Source of the DNA: Ramlibacter sp.
GTDB taxonomy: Bacteria > Pseudomonadota > Gammaproteobacteria > Burkholderiales > Burkholderiaceae_C
DNA: 52,342 nt
Direction of reading: 5' to 3'
Assembly (NCBI GenBank): GCA_019449555.1
Contig: JAGRPN010000399.1
Span: forward strand, 1 to 52,342
Shown here: one piece after another, positions 2,047 through 9,346 of the stretch
How positions within the stretch are numbered: position 1 is the stretch's first letter
How the letters are laid out: every line of letters begins with the position of its first letter
Translations under genes and position numbers: made by a program
Notes under the pieces: model-generated
What the model was told of the DNA's origin: nothing
The model's input: the letters and a program-made list of their open reading frames with translations, nothing else
The model's database searches: none

Positions 2047-2066
2047 CCCTGTCAAACTTGACAGGG
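2047..2066. promoter_or_regulatory. lux-box-like 20-bp inverted repeat upstream of cqsA
   Basis: CCCTGTCAAACTTGACAGGG is a perfect 9-bp inverted repeat around a 2-bp centre, ending 60 bp before the cqsA start codon. It has the size and the CTGT...ACAG ends of lux boxes bound by LuxR-type regulators. It contains TTGACA on both strands, so it could overlap a -35 element. No T-run follows on either strand, so it is not a typical terminator. A perfect GTGCGCGCGCAC palindrome abuts it at 2067-2078. A similar dyad lies at 5799-5818. Binding by the nearby LuxR-type protein is inferred. Confidence 0.6.
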
Positions 2067-2126
2067 GTGCGCGCGCACGTTTCGGCCGTGTGCCTCTTCA
2101 ATCGGGAACTCGTTGAGGAGTTCATC

Positions 2127-3380
2127 ATGGTAGTAATCGAACAGTCGGCCGCGACGCGCGCGCAGCCCGGCCTGTCGGCGCCCCTGCGCCACCGAATCGC
2201 GCGGGACTTCCAGTCGCGCTGGGAAAAGGATTGGGGCGGCAAATTCGTGACCCATGGCCGCGCGCCGGGGCCGGATGCCGTTCGCCTGGACGGCAACGAC
2301 TATCTCGCCATTACCGGCCATCCAAAGGTGGCGCAGGCCCAGCTCGACGCACTGCGGCGGGGCCAGGACTTCATCATCCAGTCGGGCGTATTCCAGCTCG
2401 ACGGCAGCCCGGCATCGCATTTCCAGAGCACGCTGGCCGCATGGCTCGGCAAGCAGGACGGGCTGTTGTGCCAATCGGGCTACACGGCGAATCTCGGCTT
2501 GCTGCAGGTGATCGCGGACCCGCAGACGCCCGTTTATCTCGACAGCCTGGCGCACATGTCCTTATGGGAGGGCGCGCGAGCGGCGGGCGCGCCGTCGTAC
2601 GGCTTTCGCCACAACGACCCGGCACACCTGTCGAAACTAGCCCAGCGGCACGGGCCCGGGCTCGTCGTGGTGGATTCGGTGTACAGCACGACGGGGGCGC
2701 TGGCCTGCCTGACCGACCTGGTGGAAACGGCGGAACGCCACGAATGCATGATCCTCGTGGACGAGTCGCACAGCCTGGGCACGCACGGTCCGCAGGGCAG
2801 GGGACTCTGCGCCATGCTGGGACTGACCCACCGGGTTCACTTCATCACGGCCAGCCTCGCCAAGGCGTTCGCCGGGCGGGCAGGTTTTTTCACGATGCCG
2901 GCGGAGCTGCGACCCTATCTCATGTGCCACAGCTATCCGAGCATTTTCAGCTCCTGCCTGCTGCCCCACGAAGTAGCGGCACTGGCGGCCACCCTCGAGG
3001 TCGTCCAGGAGGCCGACGAGGCGCGCCGGCGACTGCACGCCAACACGCACCGGCTGCGGTCGGTGTTCGAAGACGCGGGTTATCCGATCCACCAGGGTAC
3101 AGAACAGATCATCTCGCTCGAAGCCGGAACGGAATCGGACACCCTCGTACTGCGCGATGCGCTCGAATCGCGGGGTGTCTTCGGGGCGGTGTTCTGCGCC
3201 CCGGCGACGAGCCGCAACCGCGCGATGGTGCGCTTGACGCTCAATGCCGCGCTGACCGACGCCGAGATGTCCCATGTCGCTGCAGTGGCCGCGGACATCG
3301 CGGCGCAGGTGAGGCCCTGGGAATGGCCGATCGCGCGGCGGCAGGCGAGCCGGGGCCTCACGCCTGAAGCTCAAGCCTGA
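2127..3380 (+). CDS. cqsA: CqsA/LqsA-type alpha-hydroxyketone autoinducer synthase
   Basis: A 417-residue fold-type I PLP enzyme of the alpha-oxoamine synthase family, most like CqsA of Vibrio, LqsA of Legionella and JqsA of Janthinobacterium. These condense an acyl-CoA with an amino-acid-derived substrate (SAM for CqsA) towards CAI-1/LAI-1-type hydroxyketones. Visible features are GDFII-like QDFIIQSGVFQLDGS (80-94), QSGYTAN (116-122), the PLP-contacting VDESHSLGTHG (211-221) and the Schiff-base lysine in ASLAKAFAGRAG, Lys246. I chose ATG 2127 because GAGGAG lies 6 bp before it and homology begins after it; an in-frame upstream start at 2058 would fall inside the lux-box-like repeat. BioF or KBL activity is the alternative, but the QS-type neighbours favour autoinducer synthesis. 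It converges on the response regulator with a 10-bp overlap of stop regions. Confidence 0.9.
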   Translation: MVVIEQSAATRAQPGLSAPLRHRIARDFQSRWEKDWGGKFVTHGRAPGPDAVRLDGNDYLAITGHPKVAQAQLDALRRGQDFIIQSGVFQLDGSPASHFQSTLAAWLGKQDGLLCQSGYTANLGLLQVIADPQTPVYLDSLAHMSLWEGARAAGAPSYGFRHNDPAHLSKLAQRHGPGLVVVDSVYSTTGALACLTDLVETAERHECMILVDESHSLGTHGPQGRGLCAMLGLTHRVHFITASLAKAFAGRAGFFTMPAELRPYLMCHSYPSIFSSCLLPHEVAALAATLEVVQEADEARRRLHANTHRLRSVFEDAGYPIHQGTEQIISLEAGTESDTLVLRDALESRGVFGAVFCAPATSRNRAMVRLTLNAALTDAEMSHVAAVAADIAAQVRPWEWPIARRQASRGLTPEAQA

Positions 3381-4348
3381 ACATGGCGCTTGCTTTGGCG
3401 CGCCAGCCAGTTGTTGTAGCTGTTGTCGGGGTCGGGGCAGAGCGGCGAATCGACGGTGAACAGCGCGCCCAGCAGAGCCCCGTCCTGGCCCACCGGGGAC
3501 GCCGCGGCCAGCTCGGGCGGGCCGCTGCCGCCGAGTCCCTGGCGCAGTTCCAGGTCGGCCAGCCTGCGGCCCTGCCGGATGTCCTGCAGCGCGGAGGGCG
3601 GCACGCCTTCGAGTTCGGCCAGTTCGGCTTGCGCCTTCAGCCCTTCCAGCGTTTCGAGCTGGAGCCAGCTGACGTGGCCGGCTGCATCCATGCCGAGGAT
3701 GCCGAAGGGATCGCCGATCACCACATGTTCGATCCAGCGCCGCGCGGCGAACGCGGCGAGGTCGCGGCCCACGGAGGGCATCCGCAGCAGCGCATTCTGC
3801 TCGGGGCCGAGCGTCACGCGCCAGGTTTGCGCGTGTCGCGCGTTGGGCGTCGCGAGCAGGTGCTCGACCGCCTCGATCAGCCGGCGCGAAATGTCGGGTG
3901 TCTGCTTGGCGATGAACTGGTCGATCAGGCCGCGGTTGAATGCGCGCACCGCCACCTGCTCGTCGGCCTGGCCGGTGAGGAGCACGCGCGAGCCCGGCCA
4001 ATCCACCAGTTCGCTGAGCGCCTGCAAACCGTCCATGCCGGGCATCGAATAGTCGAACACGCACACGCGGGTGAGGGCGTAGCGTTCGGTGTACCTGGAC
4101 CAGTACCCCAGGATTTGCGGAATGAGGCGCTTGCCTTGCCGCCACTGGTCGATCAACTGTTGCTGGTTCCACGCGTCGGCCTCCCAGAACGGAGGCTCCT
4201 GCTGCAGGTAATTGATGCACTCGACCGGGCGCAGGAAGAGCTTGACGTACCAGTGCCGCGGCAGCACCAGCGCAAGCATCTCGAGGTAATCGGGGTCGTC
4301 GTCGAGGAAGACCACCGTGCCTGGACGATGGAACAGTGGAAAGCTCAT
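3371..4348 (-). CDS. LqsR-like response regulator with extended receiver domain
   Basis: A 325-residue protein. The N-terminal half is a CheY-like receiver with acidic residues Asp16-Asp18, phospho-acceptor Asp99 in CVFDYSMPGMDGLQ, Thr125 in LLTG and Lys148 in FIAKQ. Asp99 is about 40 residues later than in a usual receiver because a Trp/Gln-rich segment (about 50-90) is inserted; LqsR of Legionella has a comparably late Asp. The C-terminal 170 residues contain no DNA-binding motif that I recognise. The gene starts 39 bp after the kinase stop on the same strand, so the pair is probably one operon and the kinase probably phosphorylates this protein. The output mechanism is unknown. Confidence 0.82.
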   Translation of the reverse strand: MSFPLFHRPGTVVFLDDDPDYLEMLALVLPRHWYVKLFLRPVECINYLQQEPPFWEADAWNQQQLIDQWRQGKRLIPQILGYWSRYTERYALTRVCVFDYSMPGMDGLQALSELVDWPGSRVLLTGQADEQVAVRAFNRGLIDQFIAKQTPDISRRLIEAVEHLLATPNARHAQTWRVTLGPEQNALLRMPSVGRDLAAFAARRWIEHVVIGDPFGILGMDAAGHVSWLQLETLEGLKAQAELAELEGVPPSALQDIRQGRRLADLELRQGLGGSGPPELAAASPVGQDGALLGALFTVDSPLCPDPDNSYNNWLARQSKRHVQA

Positions 4349-4387
4349 GGTGTGGCTCCCGTGGGGTGCGAGGGTTGGGCGGTCATT

Positions 4388-5695
4388 TCATCGGCTGAGC
4401 ACGGGCAATTCGACCGTGAAGCAGGCACCGCGCGTCAACTCCGATTTGACGCGGATCGAGCCGCCGGCGCTGTGAATCACGCGCTGGCAAAACGCCAGCC
4501 CCAGGCCGTGGCCGGAGCCGCGGTCGGTGGAAAAGAACGGCTCGAAAATCCGGGCCTGCAAATGCGCATCGATGCCGACCCCGCGATCGGTGACCACGAT
4601 CCGGCCGCGGTGGTTGCCGGCGGCGCCGACGTCGATCGCGATGTCCCCGGGCTGAGTCGCGGCATTGCTGGCGGCGAGCGAGCGCAGCGCATTCTTCAAC
4701 AGGTTGTCGACCACCTGCAGGAACAACGCGTGCGATCCCTCGAACAGGAAATCCTTCTGGATGCGCAGCGAGACGCACTCCCTTTCGCGCGAACTGCGAT
4801 ACGGATAGGTCCCCACGGCTTCACGCACGACGTTCGCCGCGCTGACCGTTTCCTTCTGACTGGGCAGACGCATCAGGCGCGCGTTGGCGATCTGCGTGTC
4901 GATCTGGTGATTCATGTTGCGCACCAGCGCATGCAGCCGGCCCGAGAGATTCTCGAGCGTCTGCCGCCCGTTCGGCTCGCAGCGGGAGGCCTCGCCGCGG
5001 ACCGCGTCTCCGATCAGCGACATCGTGGCGAGCGGCGTGCGCAGTTCGTGGGCCATGATGCCCATGGTGCCCAGCGTGTAGTTCAATTGCTCGCGGCGCA
5101 GGTTCGACGACGAGATGCCCAGGATCACGCCCATGAACCAGCTGAAGGAGATCACGACGGCATTGGTCAGCGCCTGCTCCGTCGACAGCCCGAACGTCTG
5201 GGGGCCGGCTGCCTGGAACAGGAGCCACGCGGCCACCATGCCCGAGACGGTGCCGAACGTGGCCAGGCGCCAGTCGGTGAGGTGGTAGTAAATGAGGAAC
5301 ATCGCGGCAAGGCTGGCCAGCCAGACGGTATTGCCGTTGTTGCAGAAATACATCCACGAAAAGAACCAGGGCAGCGTGATCCAGAAGATCGCCGTGAATA
5401 CCGCTGCCGCGGGCCGGCTCGGCGGGCTTACGGTGATCTTCGGAAACACCAGCAGGCACACGCCCAGCGTGCTCATCGCGAGCCGCAGCCAGAGGTTTTC
5501 ATAGGGCTGGGGCAGCCATTTCGTCCAGATCCACCAGAACAGCGGATGGCCGAATGCCGTGGACAATCCGAGCGCGCGGATCCGCCAGCGCGAAGGGTGG
5601 AGAATCGGCTCCAGCAGGGGCCTCACCACCTCGTTCGCTGCCCACGACTTCAGCAGTTCCGCCGCACCCTGGTACAGCACATGTATCGACGACAA
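4388..5695 (-). CDS. CqsS/LqsS-like membrane sensor histidine kinase
   Basis: A 435-residue kinase whose first 200 residues hold about six hydrophobic segments, the layout of the CqsS/LqsS hydroxyketone sensors. Catalytic boxes follow: H-box MAHELRTPLATM with His216, N-box VVDNLLKNALRSL, G1 VTDRGVGID, F-box FEPFFSTD and G2 GHGLGLAFC. There is no C-terminal receiver domain, unlike Vibrio CqsS and like LqsS, so a separate regulator must take the phosphate; the LqsR-like gene immediately downstream fits. The start is TTG at 5693-5695, preceded by TGAGGAA 5 bp upstream; the nearest alternative is GTG five codons later. It is divergent from luxR across 95 bp. Detection of the CqsA product is inferred from family and context. 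Confidence 0.88.
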   Translation of the reverse strand: MSSIHVLYQGAAELLKSWAANEVVRPLLEPILHPSRWRIRALGLSTAFGHPLFWWIWTKWLPQPYENLWLRLAMSTLGVCLLVFPKITVSPPSRPAAAVFTAIFWITLPWFFSWMYFCNNGNTVWLASLAAMFLIYYHLTDWRLATFGTVSGMVAAWLLFQAAGPQTFGLSTEQALTNAVVISFSWFMGVILGISSSNLRREQLNYTLGTMGIMAHELRTPLATMSLIGDAVRGEASRCEPNGRQTLENLSGRLHALVRNMNHQIDTQIANARLMRLPSQKETVSAANVVREAVGTYPYRSSRERECVSLRIQKDFLFEGSHALFLQVVDNLLKNALRSLAASNAATQPGDIAIDVGAAGNHRGRIVVTDRGVGIDAHLQARIFEPFFSTDRGSGHGLGLAFCQRVIHSAGGSIRVKSELTRGACFTVELPVLSR

Positions 5696-5790
5696 ATAAG
5701 TTCCTCAGGCGAATCGCGCTCCCTGGCTGCCATGCGCGGCAGTGCATGATGATATTGTCTCAGCCCCTGCAGCAACGAAAAGACAACCCC

Positions 5791-6459
5791 ATGGGGGTAC
5801 CTGTTAACTTTGACAGCGTCAGTCTGGACGGCCTCCTGAGCGACTGGATCAGCGCGCTGCGCGAGTTTTCCGTCGAAGCTGTCGCCGTGCTGGGGCCGGA
5901 CCCGTTCGGCACGAGCGAGGACCGCCAGGTGGTGGCGGTTCATCCGCCGATCGTGGCCGACGCAGCCAAGGCGCTCGCCGAAAGCCGCGATTTCGGCGCC
6001 CCCTGGCGCGACTCGGATGCGCCCCTGGTGGCGTGGCAGTACATCGCCAAATCCGATCATCTGAGCTCGAGCCGCTGGCGGTTGCTGTGGCTGGCGCATG
6101 GCTTCCAGACGGTCGTGCGGGTCGAGTTCTCGCTGCCGGCGGGCCGCGCCTTCGAGTGTTTCATGTTCAGTCCGCGCGAACTGACCGACCGCACCGAAGC
6201 GGCGTCGCTGGTCTGGTCCGCGCTCAACATCTGGCCCCTGGTGAAACGCTGCATCGCGACGGCGCGTTCCACGCTCAGCCCCCGCGAGCGCGAATGCCTG
6301 GTGCTCGCCTTCCAGGGGCTCACGGCGCGCGAGAGTTCGGCGCGCCTGCGTTGCAGCGAGCGCACCGTGAACTACCATCTCGCGAACGCCATGGGCAAGC
6401 TCAAGGTGGACAACAAGATGGCGGCGATCCAGCGGGCATGCTGGCTCGGCGCGATTTGA
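5791..6459 (+). CDS. LuxR-type solo regulator with autoinducer-domain-like N-terminus
   Basis: A 222-residue protein. Residues 160-222 are a LuxR helix-turn-helix (LSPREREC, ERTVNYHLANAMGKLKVDNK, ending RACWLGAI), very close to quorum-sensing LuxR proteins rather than NarL-type regulators. There is no receiver domain. Residues 1-150 have the length and pattern of an autoinducer-binding domain (WQYIAKSDHL, HGFQTVVRVEF, FECFMFSPRE), although canonical acyl-homoserine-lactone contacts are not clearly kept. No luxI-like gene is in the window. The start is uncertain: ATG 5791 has only a weak AAAAG upstream, and ATG 5746 or 5749 would add about 15 residues. A lux-box-like dyad overlaps the first codons. 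It is divergent from the kinase gene. Confidence 0.83.
   Translation: MGVPVNFDSVSLDGLLSDWISALREFSVEAVAVLGPDPFGTSEDRQVVAVHPPIVADAAKALAESRDFGAPWRDSDAPLVAWQYIAKSDHLSSSRWRLLWLAHGFQTVVRVEFSLPAGRAFECFMFSPRELTDRTEAASLVWSALNIWPLVKRCIATARSTLSPRERECLVLAFQGLTARESSARLRCSERTVNYHLANAMGKLKVDNKMAAIQRACWLGAI
5799..5818. promoter_or_regulatory. second lux-box-like dyad at the luxR start
   Basis: ACCTGTTAACTTTGACAGCG matches the reverse complement of the 2047-2066 site at 16 of 20 positions (14 of 16 in the CTGT...ACAG core). It covers codons 3-10 of luxR if translation starts at 5791, and lies about 105 bp upstream of the divergent kinase start. It could serve autoregulation or control the kinase operon. Because it lies in coding sequence, chance resemblance is possible. 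Confidence 0.42.
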
Positions 6460-6510: not shown

Positions 6511-7431
6511 ATGGCCGACTCCGACCGCACCGCCTCCCTGATGACGCCCGCCAAGCTGGCGCAGATCAAGCCCAAAGGCGCGGCTTCCCCGGCGGCATGG
6601 CTCAGCCAGATGGCCGCAGACGCGGGCCATGTGCACGTGCGGCGCCTGCGCGAACTGCGTGAACAGCTTCGGGCGCAGTCGGGACTGATGGAACTCTCGC
6701 CCTTCGTGGTCGCATCGGCGCGGCTCGCGCAAGCCCTGCCCGCCCTGGATTTCGGACTGCTGCGAAGCCGCGGCTGGTGGGCGCGCGCCACCGGCAAGAG
6801 CCGCACTGCGGGCGCTGAATTCGCCGCGCAGTTCCAGCGCATCGACGAAGTGGCCCGATCGGTCGAAGCTCCAGCCCAGGGAGTGCGCAAGCAACAGCAG
6901 GAGCGGGCCGGCGCCGCCGACCTCGCGCTGCTCGAGATCGAAGTGGAACACCACGCCATCGAGAAGATCATCGACCAGGGGTCGCGCTGGCTGCAGGATA
7001 TGCGCAACCAGATCAAGAGCCGCGAGGCCGCCGGGCCCGATGCGGCAGCGCAGGAGCAACTCAAGGAGGACGCTGCCCGCTGCGAGATCCTGGTGACGCG
7101 CTTGATGGTGCTGCGCGCCGTCAGCTCCGCGGTGCAGCAGCTGCTGCAGCAGGCTCGAGGGGCGGCAAGCCGGCGCGCGGCCCTCGCGCAAAAATTGCAG
7201 CAGGCGCTCGCGTCCTGCATGAGAGCCTGGCACACGCGGCTGGCCGAGCTCGCTGCGAGCGCCGGGGACGCCGCTTCGCCGGCCCTGAACCTCGAGGACG
7301 CGATGGAAGCCCATCGCGAACTGCAGCTGTGCGTGAAGCAGTTCCTGGCCGACTGCGCGCAGCTCGAGGCGCAGGAAAAGCTGGCGGCGGAAAGTCTCGC
7401 CGCCCTCGAAGCCCAGCTCGAGGCCGCATGA
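6511..7431 (+). CDS. Hypothetical coiled-coil protein
   Basis: A 306-residue soluble protein that I do not recognise. From about residue 100 to the end it is dominated by Gln/Glu/Ala/Arg heptad-like helices, for example [25 protein letters not shown] and [16 protein letters not shown], with no signal peptide or membrane segment. A short WW-containing segment near residue 88 ([11 protein letters not shown]) separates two helical parts. No clear Shine-Dalgarno sequence precedes ATG 6511. It lies 51 bp after luxR and 37 bp before coaX on the same strand, so it may share a transcript with either. TelA-like and structural coiled-coil roles are conceivable, but nothing visible supports one. Confidence 0.75.
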
Positions 7432-7468
7432 ACGCGCCGCTTCGCCACCCTCGCAGGAACGGCTGATC

Positions 7469-8245
7469 ATGGCCTTTCTCGCGGTGGACGTCGGCAACAC
7501 CCGCCTCAAGTGGGCGCTGTACGACGCTCCCAAGCCGGGCGCCGGGCTGCGCGCGCACGGCGCCGAATTCCTCGAGAACATCGACAAGCTCGCCGACGGC
7601 GCATGGTCCGCGATCGAGCCGCCCCAGCGGATGCTGGGTTGCGCCGTGGCGGCCGATGCCGTGAAGCGCAGGGTCGAGGAGCAGATGGACGAGCTTTGGG
7701 ACGTCCCGGCGCACTGGGTCGTGCCCAATGCGGGCGAAGCGGGCCTCATCAACGGCTACGACCATCCGACCCGCCTCGGCGCCGACCGCTGGGTGGCCAT
7801 GATCGGCGCGCGCCACCGGATGCTGGCCCGCGGTGCGCCCCGGCCGCTGGTTGTCGTGATGGTCGGCACCGCTGTCACGGTGGAGGCGGTGGACGTGCAT
7901 GGCAGGTTCCTGGGCGGCTTCATCCTGCCGGGGCACGGCATCATGCTCAGGGCGCTGGAGTCCGGCACGGCCGGCCTGCACGTGCCGACCGGCGAAGTGC
8001 GCCAGTTCCCGACCAACACCAGCGACGCGTTGACCAGCGGCGGCACTTATGCGATTGCGGGAGCGATCGAACGCATGGTGCAGCACGTGCGCCGGCACTG
8101 CGGTGCGGAGCCGGTGTGCATCATGACGGGGGGCGCGGGCTGGAAGATGGCGCCCCACATGTCGGTGCCCTTCCAGCTGGTGGAAGGTCTGATCTTCGAA
8201 GGCCTGCTGGAGATCGCGCGGCAACGGTTCGCCACGCCGACCTGA
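7469..8245 (+). CDS. coaX: Type III pantothenate kinase CoaX
   Basis: A 258-residue enzyme that phosphorylates pantothenate in the first step of coenzyme A synthesis. The ASKHA-fold signatures are present: the N-terminal phosphate loop [22 protein letters not shown] near residue 109, the catalytic/adenosine loop [11 protein letters not shown], and [11 protein letters not shown]. Length and layout are typical for betaproteobacterial CoaX. AGGA lies about 12 bp before ATG 7469. The gene ends 3 bp before the stop of the opposing DUF2817 gene, so the two converge. Confidence 0.95.
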
Positions 8246-8248
8246 GCG

Positions 8249-9346
8249 TCATCCCGCCAATCCGTCGACGGCCTGGGTCAGGGCCTCGCGGGCTTGCCGC
8301 AGTACCTGCTCTTTCCAGTCCGCACTGTCCACGTAATAGGCGTCGCGCATTTGCCCCTTGATTTGGGCCGCCAGCGCGGCGGGCGCGTCCGGGTGCAGGT
8401 GCAGCCAGTGTTCGCCCCGCAACGCCTGCAGCGCTTCCATGAGCGGCAGCGTGCCGTATTCGATGGCGATGCCCGTGTATTGCGCCTGCGGGCATTCGTC
8501 GTAGGCCGCGCTCCACATCAGGCCGGTGAGGAACGCCGAACTGGAGGAGCCGTCGTAGATGGAGGTCACCGGAGTGGCTCCCCCGCCGTGCCACCACGCG
8601 CGAGCCCGGCCAATAGCCCCGCCGTCGTCGCGCCCGGCGTAGATGCGCTCGCCGACGCCACTCGGCCCCAGCCCGGTGTGAACGTCGATCCAGGCGATCC
8701 GCGCGGCGCGTCGGCCGTGTGAACGCAACACCTCCCGCAACGTCAGGTTGCTCCAGGTGGGCGCATGGCCGCCGTAGAACATGCCGTCGGGAAACTCGTG
8801 CTGGCCGCGCGAGACCGCGGCCTGGAGCGCGGCTTCCCCGCGCTCGGCGATGTAACGGGCCACCGCCGCGCGGTTCGCGTCCGTCGGCGGCCACTGCTGC
8901 GGCAACAGCAGCGGATGGAGCTCGCGGTAGCCCTCGTTCACCGGCAGGGGCTGCGAGAAATCCTGGAAGTTGCGGTTCAGGTCGACGTTCTCATGGGTGG
9001 CCCGGCGGATATGCGAGAAACCGTACGGGTTCAGCGCATGGATGTAAAGCACGGTGACGCCGCGCCGGCGGGCATGTTCGCGCCAGGCTTCATCGTGCAG
9101 GGCCGCGACCTGCACGCCGCTGCCGCAAAAGCCTTCCACGCCGTGGCAGGCGCTGGAGACGATCAGCAAGCTGGCGGCATCCGGACGGCCGTCGCGCGCC
9201 ACGTCCATCGCCAGCGCTTCGCCGTCCCGCCCCGCGAGCGGGTGCGGCTTGGATTCCACTTCCAGGCCGGCGCGTCGCGCCGATTGCAGGAAGCGCTCGC
9301 GCGCCTGGGCGTAGGAGGATGAAAATGCCCCGCCGACAGGGATCAT
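8249..9346 (-). CDS. DUF2817 / M14-like zinc carboxypeptidase family protein
   Basis: A 365-residue member of the DUF2817 family, related in fold to M14 metallocarboxypeptidases. Probable zinc ligands are in ACHGVEGFCGSG (His and Glu) and in the later WIDVHTGLGPSG (His). The segment NPYGFSHIRRATHENVDLNR is the typical family signature. The final third has GIAIEYGTLP, which probably carries the catalytic Glu. No signal peptide is visible, so it is probably cytoplasmic. ATG 9346 was chosen because it overlaps the TGA of the upstream hydrolase gene as ATGA, which suggests translational coupling. The substrate is unknown; a peptide or acylated amino acid is plausible given its partner. Confidence 0.85.
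   Translation of the reverse strand: MIPVGGAFSSSYAQARERFLQSARRAGLEVESKPHPLAGRDGEALAMDVARDGRPDAASLLIVSSACHGVEGFCGSGVQVAALHDEAWREHARRRGVTVLYIHALNPYGFSHIRRATHENVDLNRNFQDFSQPLPVNEGYRELHPLLLPQQWPPTDANRAAVARYIAERGEAALQAAVSRGQHEFPDGMFYGGHAPTWSNLTLREVLRSHGRRAARIAWIDVHTGLGPSGVGERIYAGRDDGGAIGRARAWWHGGGATPVTSIYDGSSSSAFLTGLMWSAAYDECPQAQYTGIAIEYGTLPLMEALQALRGEHWLHLHPDAPAALAAQIKGQMRDAYYVDSADWKEQVLRQAREALTQAVDGLAG

Follow-up and report, generated by a model that had tools for sequence, protein, structure and literature searches.

A LuxR-type regulator with matching lux boxes at an Lqs/Jqs-type quorum-sensing locus of a Ramlibacter-like bacterium

The closest described relatives of the locus considered here are the Lqs system of Legionella pneumophila (LqsA, LqsR, LqsS), the Jqs system of Janthinobacterium and Duganella (JqsA, JqsS, JqsR) and the Cqs system of Vibrio (CqsA, CqsS). 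The locus lies in a stretch of 52,342 nucleotides from Ramlibacter sp. (contig JAGRPN010000399.1; hereafter the window) and appears, from its gene content, to be a hydroxyketone quorum-sensing locus of the Lqs/Jqs type that makes and senses a cell-density signal; a gene for a LuxR-type regulator adjoins it. With Lqs it shares the synthase family, the receiver-less kinase and the fold and receiver residues of LqsR (PDB 6sy9), whereas no LuxR or lux box is described for Legionella in the available parts of PMC3376566. The same parts call the function of the C-terminal portion of Legionella LqsR unknown, and already name Polaromonas among the bacteria with lqsA/lqsS homologues, some of which have lqsR. 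Jqs, also from Burkholderiales, comprises the same three-gene set, but its cluster as described in the accessible sections of PMC3566124 and PMC5080296 contains no LuxR (luxR solos are mentioned for those genomes but not tied to jqs), and the JAI-1 motif reported for it, TTGAN6/7TCAA, is unlike the present box. Vibrio Cqs has the synthase family in common with the present locus and, unlike it, no LqsR (PMC3566124, in part); it relays to LuxU/LuxO, and the 'LuxR' of Vibrio harveyi is a TetR-type protein (PMC3376566, in part). Finally, LuxR solos and receptors for acyl-homoserine lactones (AHLs), such as QscR, RhlR, SdiA and TraR, share architecture and fold with the present LuxR, which differs from them in not reaching the autoinducer-domain model, in having no LuxI in its own genome and in its LqsR partner. 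Their consensus binding site is a palindrome of the lux-box type, as here. Ralstonia PhcX, a member of the LqsR family, exemplifies an LqsR that has outlived the loss of its synthase and joined another signal system, in this case phc, and lqsR adjoins phc genes in Hydrogenophaga (PMC10653808, in part); the word LuxR is absent from the main text of that paper. In the portions of these four papers available to us, no LuxR partner or lux box is given for LqsR in the Lqs, Jqs or Cqs systems, and among the matches listed for the open-licence PubMed Central literature, which are a lower bound and include PMC9021309, we found no description of this LuxR in the parts covered. What is new here is thus the combination of a LuxR and lux boxes with an Lqs-type locus; the reuse of LqsR and LuxR with several synthases, discussed below, is the bolder claim.

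For regulators of the LqsR type no DNA-binding output is known, and the literature as covered here leaves open how they alter gene expression. We think it likely, on the basis of sequence comparison, that LuxR provides the LqsR pathway at this locus with its DNA-binding output and feeds back positively on cqsA, rather than forming a separate second readout. A serial arrangement is favoured because Pfam finds a DNA-binding domain in LuxR but none in LqsR, and because LuxR follows LqsR across genomes more closely than it follows the synthase. The elements concerned, in window positions, are these:

2047 to 2066, strandless: lux-box palindrome CCCTGTCAA-AC-TTGACAGGG, found by inverted-repeat search, ~70 bp upstream of the cqsA ATG
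2097 to 2102, plus strand: TTCAAT element at a near-fixed distance from the box, a possible -10 or transcription start of cqsA
2127 to 3380, plus strand: cqsA/lqsA/jqsA-type alpha-hydroxyketone autoinducer synthase (NF005526, 558.6 bits, cut-off 428)
3371 to 4348, minus strand: lqsR-type response regulator (Pfam, alignment of 35 sequences, profile and fold match to PDB 6sy9)
4388 to 5680, minus strand: receiver-less membrane histidine kinase at the place of LqsS/JqsS (HATPase_c, HisKA; possible TTG start at 5695)
5753 to 5759, plus strand: TATTGTC, a putative extended -10-like element upstream of luxR, conserved in relatives
5791 to 6459, plus strand: LuxR-type regulator, its N-terminus autoinducer- or GAF-like, with a GerE helix-turn-helix (GerE 58.7 bits; model and fold matches)
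5799 to 5818, strandless: second lux box ACCTGTTAACTTTGACAGCG, in luxR codons 3-9; also upstream of the divergent kinase-lqsR operon, whose start is ~110-130 bp away

An earlier note on this DNA had described a complete set of synthase, receiver-less kinase and LqsR, and models and domains identify all three. By its profile matches CqsA is a clear alpha-hydroxyketone-type synthase and not BioF or KBL: it exceeds the NF005526 cut-off by a wide margin, scores 216.1 bits against the 426.45 required by the BioF model, and stays under the cut-offs of KBL-type models. LqsR matches the solved Legionella protein (6sy9) over both domains (profile E 1.9e-29, positions 9-263; fold TM scores 0.73/0.77). 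Its receiver residues D16, D17, D99, T125 and K148 are invariant in the alignment, and on this evidence it retains the residues required for phosphorylation; Pfam finds no DNA-binding domain in it. The kinase, which has no receiver, matches HATPase_c with 83.3 bits and HisKA with 24.2, below the cut-off of 26.9, and is ~30% identical to kinases adjoining cqsA in other families. A crude hydropathy scan of its sensor part exceeded the threshold at three places; the sensor part of LqsS/JqsS has six membrane helices.

The LuxR beside them, which the note had described as autoinducer-domain-like and unaccompanied by luxI, carries a GerE DNA-binding domain (PF00196). The autoinducer-binding model PF03472 has no match in it at E<=1, and none in its own genome. 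In fold the whole protein most resembles the AHL receptors named above, and its N-terminal domain, taken by itself, matches GAF domains no less well than an AHL receptor; the N-terminus is therefore described here as an autoinducer-domain- or GAF-like fold, and the reading we favour is independent of which it is. The profile alignment to SdiA spans only residues 101-220, the C-terminal half, and AHL-contact residues cannot be mapped through it. LuxI (PF00765) is absent from the own genome and above cut-off in none of the 27 full-length LuxR-carrying genomes given (27 of 34), three of which have matches below cut-off. This solo status is qualified by a FeeM-like gene elsewhere in the own genome.

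The box upstream of cqsA is a perfect 9+2+9 palindrome. The interval 2047 to 6459 singled out in the earlier note begins at its first base, yet the palindrome itself goes unmentioned there. The lux box is a 20-bp dyad of the form NNCTG-N10-CAGNN, and both window boxes fit it; the luxR box differs from the cqsA box at 3 of 16 core positions, and the core pattern occurs nowhere else in the 52 kb window. We also considered the JAI-1 motif as the source of the palindrome and rejected it, its half-sites being in reverse order. Both boxes are conserved across Ramlibacter, Polaromonas and relatives. Of the 63 named relatives that have cqsA and at least 160 nt of sequence before it, 58 carry an exact CTGTN8ACAG in those 160 nt, against a mean of 0.28 and a maximum of 3 in 50 shuffles, and the inner palindrome pair 9/12 covaries (A-T in 27 and G-C in 19 of the 58). 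An AAT follows at offset 33 past the box in 50/59 relatives, one base further in the window. At luxR the box is kept through rare codons: among 80 named loci CCT occurs in 80 (background 0.08), GTT in 45 (0.07), TTT in 77 (0.29) and AGT in 58 (0.09), the background being usage elsewhere in the luxR gene. The upstream regions of 35 luxR genes contain ATTGT in 33 cases and TATTGTC in 20. Since the luxR box begins ~40 bp past the TATTGTC-like element and lies upstream of the divergent operon at the distance given above, it may repress luxR, drive the kinase-lqsR operon, or both. Of the cqsA loci that lack this LuxR, 20 were compared, 17 from other families (one with its upstream region cut off, one under the synthase cut-off) and 3 from within the family; none carries the core pattern close to cqsA, and the only match among them, in L278, is >2.5 kb away.

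Genes, boxes and their distribution can be read directly from a family sample of 299 genomes, in which full-length LuxR occurs in 34, LqsR in 43 and CqsA in 31. LqsR is present in all 34 LuxR-carrying genomes and CqsA in 28; not counted among the 34 are G070, where the match has 29% identity and adjoins a second, divergent lqsR, and G279, whose genome is 76% complete and has a LuxR fragment. The earlier note had proposed examining the linkage of cqsA with LuxR, and it proved to be strongly conserved: LuxR is present in 28/31 cqsA genomes, the remaining three being G009, G093 and G129, and cqsA in 61 of the 70 named LuxR loci that extend 5 kb or more upstream. Neither outcome that the note had named as refuting its reading came about, the synthase not falling with BioF/KBL and LuxR showing this linkage as well as model and fold matches. 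These 70 loci have LqsR without exception and a kinase match in 66 cases; in L178 and L182 the kinase differs from the usual one. In nine loci secA and lqsR adjoin and cqsA is absent (L046 and L219 are the same genome, and L169 has a 1.2-kb gap). They are best read as having lost cqsA and retained the LqsR-LuxR pair, because a near-perfect box remains in 6 of the 9 and because no synthase over cut-off was found elsewhere in any of 16 genomes that lack cqsA at the locus or have the pair elsewhere.

Boxes also occur away from the two standard positions. The pattern CTGTYARNNYTGACAG is present in 29/34 LuxR-carrying and 4/19 LuxR-less genomes of the family sample (reversed control 2/53), and in 25/25 genomes reached through named LuxR loci, of which G702 and G708 repeat G097 and G200 and for which the site counts of G688, G698 and G714 are at least those recorded. 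With genes called by our own script, all 81 distal sites fetched from LuxR-carrying genomes (73 + 8) are intergenic, in loci that for the 73 are 88% coding. Two further sites in the loci examined, one intergenic in R. albus and one inside the kinase gene in G040, make 1/83 within a gene; the 4 sites of LuxR-less genomes are all inside genes. Four of the 73 lie at the locus itself, in L123, L325 and L340, where cqsA is missing, and in L331, before a FeeM module. The commonest distal position, by BLAST grouping, is upstream of an rsmD-like gene, in 15 genomes including some without cqsA; PF03602 was confirmed for one, and we take genes of this type to be RsmD. Genes for ShlB/FhaC-type two-partner secretion are targets at 4 sites by BLAST, two of them domain-checked. 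The own genome has two distal boxes, one upstream of an rsmD-like gene and the other, a perfect box at position 964 of L097 (G000:C195), ~290 nt upstream of a PF03534 SpvB-domain gene that is cut by the contig end. In 65 box-gene pairs, those of the rsmD type left aside, 14 hexamers resembling a -10 stand 22-26 nt after the box, against 2.7 expected, in an interval chosen after the profile was seen. Such spacing is close to that seen when an activator overlaps the -35 region.

At the rsmD-type sites a strictly conserved GCTGTCAC stands ~60 nt downstream of the box in 15/16 aligned sites (L096, L107, L109, L124, L321, L326, L334, L337, L341, L344, L345, L346, L348, L350 and L112, the last with a downstream gene other than the rsmD-like one); L314 is one base off. 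It is often flanked by short complementary bases and could be either a half box or the loop of an RNA hairpin. A known RNA family was considered for these sites and set aside, a search of 12 loci giving two chance-level Rfam matches (E 0.85 and 0.97, far under gathering scores). Rfam likewise has no match at gathering score in the window.

Taken as a pathway, CqsA would make an alpha-hydroxyketone, which the kinase would sense, setting the phosphorylation of LqsR in one direction or the other; LqsR would control LuxR through protein contact or a small molecule; and LuxR would bind the boxes, activating cqsA in positive feedback together with a small distal regulon. At its own start LuxR might repress itself or drive the divergent operon, so that the sign of regulation may differ from box to box. 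LqsR and LuxR would be the conserved core, beside which the signal-making genes can be lost or replaced.

Several observations weigh against this picture. The box pattern is not matched exactly in five of the 34 LuxR-carrying genomes, the box is missing from 5/63 cqsA loci, no clear -10 stands at the expected place before cqsA, and the G040 box falls within a gene. The luxR box lies downstream of the likely luxR promoter, a position more in keeping with autorepression than with activation. Of the 43 family genomes with LqsR, 9 have no ortholog of this LuxR; another LuxR-type gene is near it in three of these (G035, G132 and G070), and no LuxR was found in the other six (G009, G112, G129, G176, G243 and G254; 6/43), the neighbourhood in G112 being unreadable to the gene caller. 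Conversely, G279 has its LuxR fragment near a contig end and no LqsR match, the contig being cut there. The cqsA loci of other families mostly have no LuxR neighbour (1/17 has one; some contigs are short), so LqsR can act without LuxR, and its output has been argued to be GGDEF-like (PMC10653808, in part), in which case it could work without a transcription-factor partner. The genomes are also related and the counts not independent.

The earlier note had suggested two readouts joined at one locus, and in its fuller form this holds that the kinase and LqsR act alone, for example through cyclic di-GMP, while LuxR directly binds an intracellular ligand, either the hydroxyketone or a different small acyl signal, and regulates the boxes. 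The overall fold of LuxR, closest to AHL receptors, speaks for such an arrangement, as do the occurrence of LqsR elsewhere without LuxR and a FeeM-like subfamily, found in 10/299 family genomes, all 10 LuxR-carrying and the own genome among them, through which a cytosolic ligand may be made. Yet LuxR does not reach the Pfam autoinducer-binding model, and its N-terminal domain matches GAF equally well; its presence follows that of LqsR (34/34) more closely than that of cqsA (28/34) or of the FeeM-like gene (10/34); and genomes without cqsA can have many boxes, R. albus having 10 among the matches listed. As stated, then, the proposal is unsupported, with a Pfam DNA-binding domain in LuxR and none in LqsR and a serial pathway fitting at least as well as two parallel ones, and we regard parallel readouts as unlikely. 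Lower still is the probability we assign to LuxR providing local feedback alone, tuning cqsA and itself while the real output of LqsR takes another route and the few distal boxes are incidental. It would account for the cqsA and luxR boxes being the most constant and for most distal targets being unshared between genomes (50 singleton target proteins), but not readily for the intergenic position of all 81 fetched sites or for an rsmD-like target that recurs in 15 genomes, some without cqsA.

In the window the order is secA (cut by the start of the window, identified from translation and homology), cqsA, lqsR, the histidine kinase, luxR, an uncharacterised gene and coaX, and the order secA-cqsA-lqsR-kinase-luxR-coaX is kept in relatives by synteny comparison. 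The host can be placed as a Ramlibacter-like member of the Comamonadaceae because the closest named relatives of its LuxR are from Ramlibacter, followed by Caenimonas, Polaromonas and Hydrogenophaga. Conservation of the flanking secA and coaX, and the phylogenetic closeness of these relatives, would also be expected if LuxR were a mere neighbour whose linkage reflects shared descent of a slowly rearranging region. That, however, is highly improbable: in L052, L060, L062 and L063 a divergent lqsR-luxR pair stands with no secA, coaX, cqsA or kinase found nearby, the cqsA promoter carries a box, and LqsR adjoins other LuxR proteins in G035, G132 and G305. In L403, L404, L406 and L407 (G176, G243, G254 and G070) lqsR is near coaX with no luxR there, and three of these have, between lqsR and coaX, a gene that we take to be amidase-like.

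LqsR accompanies LuxR proteins in settings with different signal synthases. In L178 and L182, from Ramlibacter, and probably in L173, cqsA and the kinase are replaced by another signalling module, made up of a gene resembling haem oxygenase (PF14518), an acyltransferase of FeeM-like type (PF21926, 32 bits in L178; assigned by similarity in L182), a LuxN-like hybrid kinase that has two receivers and Hpt, and a further hybrid of receiver and kinase. In L178 and L182 the module has a lux box upstream, as do similar sets elsewhere in the genome (L317, L347, L349); in L395 the box is ~470 nt off. No box was found at the FeeM-like module in nine loci (L385, from the own genome, L386-L388 and L390-L394), and the sole pattern match in L389 is not box-like. 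PF21926 as a whole was discarded as a marker, being uninformative (57/73 genomes at E<=0.01), and the counts given above are for the L178-like subfamily; shared ancestry may explain part of its co-occurrence with LuxR. In L385 (G000:C358), positions 6591-8338 hold a FeeM-like acyltransferase and, after it, a LuxN-like kinase that the contig end interrupts, possibly a second signalling module of the same bacterium; the adjoining genes are presumably selO and msrB. A third setting involves LuxI. G035 and G132 each have a DUF4902-luxI-lqsR operon, with lqsR at its end, that runs divergently to a luxR whose PF03472 domain is complete:

L401, 3606-6639: luxR and divergent DUF4902-luxI-lqsR
L402, 3673-6690: luxR and divergent DUF4902-luxI-lqsR

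The receiver of this luxI-linked LqsR is decayed: in the alignment the acidic pair is gone from both genomes, and D99 and K148 from G132. G305, a genome from another family, has a kinase-lqsR-luxR operon whose luxR carries PF03472, and a LuxI-type match elsewhere in that genome has an internal stop. The signals concerned would belong to different classes: hydroxyketones for CqsA, N-acyl amino acids for FeeM-like enzymes and acyl-homoserine lactones for LuxI. We tentatively suggest, at somewhat less than even odds, that LqsR and LuxR constitute a portable output cassette that has been joined to at least three signal makers (CqsA, FeeM-like enzymes with LuxN-like kinases, and LuxI), with LqsR a dedicated LuxR partner that is phosphorylated where a kinase is present and works free of phosphorylation where its receiver has decayed.

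Should the reuse of LqsR and LuxR with three signal types prove real, it would mean that input and output of quorum sensing evolve as separable modules. For the Lqs-type systems themselves, a candidate DNA-binding protein, its operators and its regulon are now visible and conserved in environmental bacteria, which makes the question of how LqsR-type regulators change expression directly testable; a LuxR switch with matching DNA sites may explain how hydroxyketone signalling finally turns genes on.

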